Of a stretch of 24,007 bases of DNA, positions 21,454 to 23,850 are shown one piece after another. The notes beneath the pieces were generated by a model. It was given only the letters and a program-made list of their open reading frames with translations. It had not been told where the DNA came from and searched no databases. How positions within the stretch are numbered: the first letter of the stretch is position 1; the number at the start of each line of letters is the position of its first letter. Origin of the DNA: a virus; the IMG/VR virus record IMGVR_UViG_3300024518_000388, positions 1 to 24,007 of that record. One strand, 5' to 3'. Made by a program: the position numbers and the translations under genes.

Positions 21454-22131
21454 TTAGCCACCGCAGCGTGTGTGCATGTCGGCAGCGTTGAACGGAACAA
21501 TGGAACCGTCCCCCGCCTGGATGCTGGTCGGTGCATCCGACAGCCACAAACCGATCCGCTTCGCACCGAGACCGTACAGTGTGGCACCAGCCTCGGAAAT
21601 GTTGAAGTCGGCAGCGTTGGCTTTCCACTCGCCTGATTCTTTCTTGCGCTTGTTGTCGAAGACGACAACCTTGCCGTCATCAGTTTTCTGACCAGCGCAC
21701 AGGAACGCCACGTTCCATGCGGCCTGTCGACCATCGGTGACGAACCCGTTGCCGTCGAGCTGCATCTTCTTGCGGGCACCCGCAGCCGGCTTCGCTGCCG
21801 CTGGTGCAGGGAACGGCATCGCTGCTGGTGCCATCACATCGCCACCAGGGGCGGCAACAATGGCGGCACCTGGGAACGCTGCCTGTACCTGAGCGGCAGG
21901 TGGTGCCGCAGCAGCCATGACTGGTGGTGCTGGTATTCCCTGCACCGCTGGTGCGACGGCAGCAGGCGGTGTCGCCGCACCGACTTCGCCGGCATGTTCA
22001 AGGATGTCGTTGAAGACCATCTCCGAGCAGGCCAGGTACTCGTTGAGACCCGCCATGCCTTTGCCGTGGCACAGCTCCCCTGCCACCTTCGCTGATGTTT
22101 GGGCGATGATGGCCCTATCTCTGTTACTCAT
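21454..22131 (-). CDS. Two-domain protein with Ala/Pro linker, replication-linked
   Basis: A 225-aa protein. The ATG at 22131 is preferred because GGGGAGAAG lies just before it; a longer frame to 22188 would overlap the nuclease gene. Residues 1-50 are helical (RDRAIIAQTSAKVAGELCHG, then SEMVFNDILEHA). Residues about 55-120 are an Ala/Pro/Gly/Val linker. Residues about 123-225 form a beta-rich domain (GKVVVFDNKRKKESGEWKAN, TLYGLGAKRIGLWLSD). The strong ribosome site points to high expression. Place between a RecB-like nuclease and the helicase, with a linker joining two small domains, would suit an ssDNA-binding or recombination-mediator protein. I see no SSB signature, so this is a guess from context. 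Confidence 0.55.
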   Translation of the reverse strand: MSNRDRAIIAQTSAKVAGELCHGKGMAGLNEYLACSEMVFNDILEHAGEVGAATPPAAVAPAVQGIPAPPVMAAAAPPAAQVQAAFPGAAIVAAPGGDVMAPAAMPFPAPAAAKPAAGARKKMQLDGNGFVTDGRQAAWNVAFLCAGQKTDDGKVVVFDNKRKKESGEWKANAADFNISEAGATLYGLGAKRIGLWLSDAPTSIQAGDGSIVPFNAADMHTRCGG

Positions 22132-22159
22132 TTTCTTCTCCCCTTTCGGGATTGGTTGG

Positions 22160-23537: not shown

Positions 23538-23726
23538 TCACTGGGAGTCGTCTGGCTCGCCGTGGAGTTCATCAGACCACGCTACGAACAGTCGTTCAAA
23601 CTGCTGGGACAGCAGCTCAAACAGGCGGCTGATCTCAAACAGCGAATCAGTCATACGCGCACGCGGCGCCCCATCTACCTCTGTCAGCACTCGTAGCTGG
23701 GGACGGTGGTGGTGGTCATCAATCAT
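23538..23726 (-). CDS. 62-aa hypothetical protein under a structured leader
   Basis: ATG at 23726, TGA at 23540-23538, with the ribosome site GAAAGGG 7 nt upstream. The product has a His-rich start (MIDDHHHRPQLRVL), then a long amphipathic helix (DSLFEISRLFELLSQQFERL) and an acidic tail (SDELHGEPDDSQ). The His run could bind metal but is short. No family known. The gene is notable for its leader, which can fold into a hairpin whose loop is complementary to the ribosome site, suggesting controlled translation. Coding status rests on the ribosome site and helix pattern. Confidence 0.45.
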   Translation of the reverse strand: MIDDHHHRPQLRVLTEVDGAPRARMTDSLFEISRLFELLSQQFERLFVAWSDELHGEPDDSQ

Positions 23727-23733
23727 AGTTGTG

Positions 23734-23792
23734 CCCTTTCATTAGAGTTCCCCCGCCCGCCTGAAAGGGTAGTAAAAGGCGGACGAGGGAAC
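23734..23792 (-). promoter_or_regulatory. Leader hairpin with anti-Shine-Dalgarno loop
   Basis: In the minus-strand transcript, 23792-23778 (GTTCCCTCGTCCGCC) pairs with 23761-23747 (GGCGGGCGGGGGAAC) over 15 bp with no mismatch, two pairs being G-U. The 16-nt loop ends in CCCTTTCA (23769-23762), the exact complement of TGAAAGGG (23741-23734), which is the ribosome site of the gene starting at 23726. Loop-SD pairing would hide that site. A plain terminator for the gene ending at 23851 is the main alternative, though no U-run follows. Confidence 0.45.
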
Positions 23793-23798
23793 AGTCGA

Positions 23799-23804
23799 AT
23801 CATA
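23799..23804 (-). promoter_or_regulatory. Possible -10 box before the leader hairpin
   Basis: On the minus strand TATGAT (5 of 6 to TATAAT) lies 6 nt before the base of the leader hairpin, so a transcript from it would begin almost exactly with the hairpin. No convincing -35 box at 16-18 nt is seen; a TTGAAG is present but only 13 nt upstream. Confidence 0.25.
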
Positions 23805-23850
23805 ACAGGTCTCATTACTTCAACAGGTACGCTGTCCCACTAACAGCATA

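Follow-up and report, generated by a model that had tools for sequence, protein, structure and literature searches.

An early-gene leader RNA on the minus strand of a viral DNA fragment carries a hairpin whose loop is complementary to the Shine–Dalgarno (SD) sequence of the gene that follows. The stem is under selection as RNA structure, with strong covariation among relatives, and the loop looks like an anti-SD sequence. The best reading is that the leader is a structured RNA absent from Rfam and represents a new family of phage leader RNAs with an anti-SD loop. Its most likely role is to cover the SD of the first gene behind it through a pseudoknot formed in cis, a reading of moderate confidence. 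Control of translation by an anti-SD loop among phage early genes can be put to a direct test with this leader.

Genomic Setting and Predicted Promoter of the Leader

The analysed stretch, termed the window, is a 24,007-base fragment of a virus. Its structural genes lie on the plus strand, and the minus strand carries the replication genes, including an exonuclease, a DnaB-like helicase, a primase, and RusA. Features of the leader and of two early genes are collected in Table 1. The leader is adjoined by small phage proteins that lack known function. Structure prediction for the 225-aa protein was of unusable quality (pLDDT 45.6). Between 18339 and 21453 on the minus strand, the helicase, primase, RusA, and other early genes lack a visible SD, and their starts coincide with or overlap the preceding stop. 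These genes may rely on translational coupling to upstream genes that bear an SD.

Table 1. Positions in the window of the leader, its predicted promoter, and the two early genes.
Feature	Position	Strand	Remarks
Upstream promoter element GGGACAGC	23831..23838	(-)	Conserved; 26-27 nt before the -10 box wherever both are present in relatives
-10 box TATGAT	23799..23804	(-)	6-8 nt gap to the stem base
Stem S1, 5' arm	23777..23792	(-)	16 nt, GTTCCCTCGTCCGCCT
Invariant loop CTACCCTTTC	23763..23772	(-)	Final 7 nt complementary to SD GAAAGGG
Stem S1, 3' arm	23747..23762	(-)	AGGCGGGCGGGGGAAC
Stem-to-SD linker TCTAAT	23741..23746	(-)	5-9 nt in relatives
SD GAAAGGG of the first gene	23734..23740	(-)	Exact complement of the loop
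First gene behind the leader	23538..23726	(-)	62 aa, function unknown; same place in relatives; 31% identity in L081 (most distant)
225-aa early gene	21454-22131	(-)	Second GAAAGGG at 22141..22147 is its SD

A search of 50,697 deposited phage records gave no DNA match to the window and no close relative. The sole protein match to a known phage is that of the helicase (31%, Manatee Spring virus), and no relative of the helicase was found in genome contigs. The most distant contig with the leader, L081, carries a gene for a WhiB-family regulator (L081:8057-8335; Pfam E 6e-21), which suggests that the host of these uncultured phages is probably actinobacterial.

A -10-like hexamer lies 6–8 nt from the stem base in 16 of 16 leaders in which the region is present. 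This hexamer is TATGAT, replaced once by TACGAT and once by TACAAT, and the gap is maintained despite varying stem length. If transcription begins at the usual distance from the -10 box, the transcript is predicted to start no more than two bases from the base of the stem. The putative promoter is unusual in the window and about 19 relatives, with GGGACAGC at a fixed spacing from TATGAT and no recognisable -35 box. The GGGACAGC element is part of a short, imperfect inverted repeat, which in the window reads GCTGTtagtgggACAGC.

The Hairpin and Its Relatives

Read as minus-strand RNA, positions 23792–23747 form a hairpin of 15 perfect pairs, two of them U-G wobbles, exactly where and as the first-pass annotation of this DNA had placed it. 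An extra U-A pair on the loop side brings the stem to 16 bp and the loop to 14 nt. The minimum free energy of the hairpin is -31.2 kcal/mol (z = -4.3), and none of 200 shuffled sequences was equally stable. A generous yardstick for chance was set as a stem of at least 12 bp, one mismatch allowed, with any 7-nt loop complement within 16 nt. Shuffled sequence totalling 4.0 Mb contained this pattern 15 times, and the hairpin together with its loop/SD complementarity is beyond chance.

Homologous leaders are present in about 20 related viral contigs. A search with the downstream exonuclease protein led to 42 viral contigs, and the leader was found in every one that includes the region upstream of the 62-aa gene. 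The parts recovered in relatives are a TATGAT-like box, the stem, the loop, and a GAAAGGG-like SD. The much more distant L081, added by a pattern scan, has the same gene order, and its exonuclease is 57% identical. A scan that required only the promoter, and not the loop, gave 19 clade contigs, with CTACCCTTTC in 19 of 19, followed by GAAAGGG or, in four, by GAAAAGGG.

About 20 further promoter-only matches had no leader, and most of these read as coding sequence. The promoter pattern TGGGACAGC(A/G)TN24TATGAT also recurs within a coding sequence (WDSIPE...RYIMIRA) that is conserved in many other phages (L260–L279; for example, L263:3971), where it is a trap for pattern searches. A scan of viral contigs for the loop/SD pattern gave 48 stretches, in which the stem was confined to clade members and L081 and the remainder were chance. 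No new leader appeared among the listed matches of a scan for the -10 box and loop, and a distant search via the helix-turn-helix protein gained no leader with an altered loop. The single match of a pattern scan of genome contigs, in Aeribacillus, pairs CCCTTTCTCC with GGAGAAAGGG in a different hairpin and was judged to be chance. Across the 4227 Rfam families, including riboswitches and C4, the leader had no match at the gathering threshold and nothing meaningful at permissive thresholds.

Covariation of the Stem

The stem was assessed in a gap-free structural alignment of 13 distinct sequences. MAFFT had misaligned the second stem family, and one extra loop C was taken out of five rows (L026/L032, L027/L028, L034, L035, and L037). 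Among the 16 stem pairs, 11 are changed on both sides and four on one side, and only one never varies. Standard pairs fill 206 of the 208 cells (99%), and 36 cells are doubly changed. None of 500 shuffles reached any of five covariation measures. As a control, shifting the pairing partner by 1–3 positions lowered pairing to 49–58%. The stem is 16–18 bp long across all leaders, and in L034 and L081 it is almost wholly rewritten while the loop is unchanged.

The direction of the wobble pairs identifies the strand. The 13 stems hold 25 U-G and one G-U wobble, 26 altogether, and no A-C or C-A. An asymmetry of 26:0 is expected of a minus-strand RNA but not of a plus-strand RNA or of an element that acts as DNA. 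The earlier proposal that a strand bias reflects selection on the minus-strand transcript is thus borne out by comparison among relatives.

The Loop and the Ribosome Site

The window loop ends in CCCUUUCA, which is complementary to UGAAAGGG at 23741–23734, the SD region of the 62-aa gene starting at 23726. The 8-nt match that had been annotated here (CCCTTTCA / TGAAAGGG) is present, with a joiner of 5 nt, or of 6 nt when counted to GAAAGGG. Its eighth nucleotide is restricted to the window, L001, and L012, however, and only seven (CCCTTTC/GAAAGGG) are conserved. Loop–SD complementarity is found in all members, over 7 nt in most and over 6 nt in the one sub-lineage in which the downstream site GAAAGGG is the variant GAAAAGGG. 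The contigs of this sub-lineage (L016, L019, L020, and L241/L259, which are nearly identical) keep six loop–SD pairs. The loop CUACCCUUUC is invariant, including in leaders that were found by a neighbouring protein or by the promoter instead of the loop.

Compensatory changes, present in the stem, are not visible in the 7–8-nt helix between loop and SD. This helix has no covariation support because the pair hardly varies: the loop never changes, and the SD changes in one sub-lineage only. The case for it is indirect. Around the loop the stems have been rewritten while the loop has not, and its last seven bases still complement the SD. Calculated duplex energies for the SD of the window are -9.9 kcal/mol with the loop and -8.4 kcal/mol with 16S rRNA. 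The last G of GAAAGGG forms a G-C pair with the loop but only a G-U pair with the usual 16S tail. The SD could also be conserved independently of the loop, since the 225-aa gene has the same 7-mer as its SD and no hairpin of the leader kind beside it.

Predicted Pseudoknot at the First Gene

The proposed mechanism begins with an early-operon mRNA that would start at or beside the hairpin base, making the leader 5'-terminal. The very stable stem of 16–18 bp would present the loop CUACCCUUUC, and its CCCUUUC segment would pair with GAAAGGG of the first gene while the stem is closed or lacks 0–2 basal pairs. The result would be an H-type pseudoknot. By competing with 16S rRNA, the pseudoknot would presumably be repressive, lowering or gating translation of the first gene, and some trigger may release it.

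Whether the pseudoknot can form depends on the linker between the stem and the SD. In A-form geometry, a stem of 15–16 bp needs about 7 linker nt (6 if fully stretched), and the leaders have 5–9. The length is borderline for crossing the first helix, and 0–2 basal pairs must fray. The joiner had at first been judged too short for a pseudoknot, which holds for the complete stem but not once those basal pairs open. A hand-made model with nearest-neighbour stacks, a fixed penalty of 9.6 kcal/mol, and steric clash ignored places the pseudoknot 1.8–8.3 kcal/mol below the bare hairpin with 0–2 basal pairs open. The straight-line estimate for the linker, which is at its geometric limit, likewise leaves out steric clash with the backbone. 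An H-type pseudoknot with 0–2 frayed basal pairs is feasible and is favoured in this rough model.

GAAAGGG Sites of Other Early Genes

The SD that matches the loop recurs at other early genes. It is the SD of the 225-aa gene, 1.6 kb downstream, in 25 of 25 distinct relatives, and further early genes in relatives are also preceded by it. GAAAGGG occurs in 52 distinct contexts on the early strand of the clade, many of them orthologous, and 44 of these have a start codon at SD distance behind it; for GAAAGGA the count is 4 of 11. Late genes on the plus strand have AGGAG-type sites. At three start sites (L100:119, L104:4679, and L105:79), the sequence GAAAGGGTAG complements every one of the ten invariant loop bases, and calculated duplexes with the loop reach -15.5 to -16.0 kcal/mol versus -8.5 to -10.1 kcal/mol with the usual 16S tail. 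Other early start sites carry GAAAGGGTAA, GAAAGGGTGA, or GAAAGGGTTA. When the 256 possible 4-nt extensions of GAAAGG were ranked, GTAG, the complement of loop CUAC, was the best fit to other early SDs, in a set that includes some first-gene and spurious clusters and in which several sites share one leader. The GTAG extension is suggestive of a loop-complement signal.

The same loop could act on other early genes too, since GAAAGGG is the SD common to them. One loop may, as a tentative proposal, be the master complement of a phage-specific early ribosome-site code, GAAAGGG(UAG), acting on its own gene in cis and on a group of early genes in trans. If the loop does act on other GAAAGGG genes, the private SD and its matching complement would constitute an early-gene regulon with RNA-only timing of expression.

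A more doubtful reading gives the main role to action in trans, or at long range within the operon. The leader mRNA or a processed 5' fragment would serve as an antisense RNA, its 10-nt loop covering the GAAAGGG(UAG) sites of a set of early genes. The loop is complementary to ribosome sites of other phage genes over 7–10 nt, as expected of a C4-like antisense RNA that acts in trans. The recurrence of GAAAGGG at the 225-aa gene and several other early genes, the rank of GTAG, and the strong duplexes at three different start sites with GAAAGGGUAG, which complements the invariant loop over its full length, all point in this direction. Action in trans would also account for the invariance of loop CUA, which is unpaired in cis. 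However, the independent target genes are few, and several of the sites belong to a single homologous 5' leader. With no terminator of its own, a hairpin that begins an mRNA would have to be processed to give a free small RNA, and the far-upstream operon is beyond the window, where the contig ends at 24007. Were action in trans true, specific repression would be expected at GAAAGGGUAG and GAAAGGGGAG sites, in contrast to AGGAGG.

The early regions contain other elements. The SD of the 225-aa gene has CCC before it in the 25 relatives (CCCGAAAGGG or CCCTGAAAGGG), and the two could fold into a tiny hairpin that has a GAAA loop and covers the gene's own SD. A second conserved early leader lies 2–3 kb upstream (L021:1260-1430, L019:940-1110, L241:1030-1200, L027:1720-1890, and L258) and consists of GTGTCAGC..TGTC repeats followed by GTCAACRTCTACGAAAGGGT immediately 5' of differing first genes. 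Another strong hairpin (CGACCACGCCTAGAG / CTCTAGGCGTGGTCG; L027:1700-1740 and L021 at about 1255) has on its loop side CTACCCTCTA, which resembles the loop motif, and is perhaps a terminator.

Other Readings of the Hairpin

The invariant part of the loop, at ten nucleotides, exceeds the seven that pair with the SD in cis, and proteins of the small phage type noted above adjoin the leader. Both observations would suit a loop that is the recognition site of a protein, either a phage repressor or a ribosomal protein, with SD complementarity secondary as in autogenous translational operators. This reading is unlikely, as protein binding alone leaves the exact SD complementarity unaccounted for and at the 225-aa gene the SD occurs with no such loop.

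The first-pass annotation had described the leader as a bistable riboregulator, in which a closed hairpin with a free SD alternates with an opened hairpin and an SD-sequestering stem. An early-leader RNA that is selected on the minus strand and has an SD-complementary loop survives from that description, but the mutually exclusive two-state switch does not. Both helices can be drawn, and they share no nucleotides. The nested fold, with the loop–SD helix formed and the hairpin open, is 10.6–21.0 kcal/mol less stable than the hairpin in every leader (17.4 kcal/mol in the window), which makes the switch unlikely and places it among the least likely RNA models. The stem is also transcribed first and is the first to form, and loop pairing does not require the whole stem to be opened. 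The switch is quite improbable on these grounds.

Very improbable, too, is a 5' hairpin that stabilises the mRNA and matches the SD by accident. The stem does lie at the predicted 5' end and is long in all leaders, but a stabiliser has no need for an invariant 10-nt loop complementary to the SD of several early genes. A DNA element (an origin hairpin or protein site) or a terminator, to which an inverted repeat in intergenic space might belong, has an almost negligible chance, given the one-strand wobble asymmetry, the -10 box upstream, the SD downstream, and a hairpin that lacks the form of an intrinsic terminator, with no U-tract on its 3' side and no terminator called there.

Comparison with Known Systems

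The leader has precedents by mechanism. In the SAM-II and preQ1-II riboswitches, an H-type pseudoknot arises when the first hairpin's loop base-pairs to the SD, the arrangement predicted here. The present leader differs in that it has no Rfam match, no metabolic gene downstream, and a stem far longer than an aptamer needs.

The C4 RNA of phages P1 and P7 sits in the leader of its own target transcript. This antisense RNA base-pairs with the ant mRNA around its ribosome-binding site and thereby blocks translation, with the complementary sequences probably in RNA loops (PMC12197685). The likeness is that of a phage antisense sequence pairing at a ribosome-binding site; the present leader, however, has one long stem and one loop, probably an actinobacterial host, and no Rfam match to C4. 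Conserved unpaired C-rich sequences of Staphylococcus aureus RsaA and RNAIII pair with the SD of target mRNAs (PMC3961350), as is predicted for the loop. These are separate small RNAs with bipartite target contacts, whereas the loop described here heads an mRNA and its action in trans is hypothetical.

In the rpsO (S15) leader of E. coli and mycobacteria, hairpin and pseudoknot forms of the 5'UTR at the ribosome-binding region control initiation (PMC8470358). The present leader shares a 5'UTR with hairpin and predicted pseudoknot forms at that region, but it has no ribosomal protein gene downstream and its stem is much longer. Plasmid and toxin leader pseudoknots control initiation through pairing between structured leader segments (Asano and Mizobuchi 1998 in PMC10724649; PMC11295053). 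The leader is assigned to none of the C4, rpsO, plasmid/toxin, or staphylococcal C-rich RNAs. In the plasmid and toxin leaders, the pseudoknot activates translation, whereas here the loop would cover the SD itself and repression is predicted.
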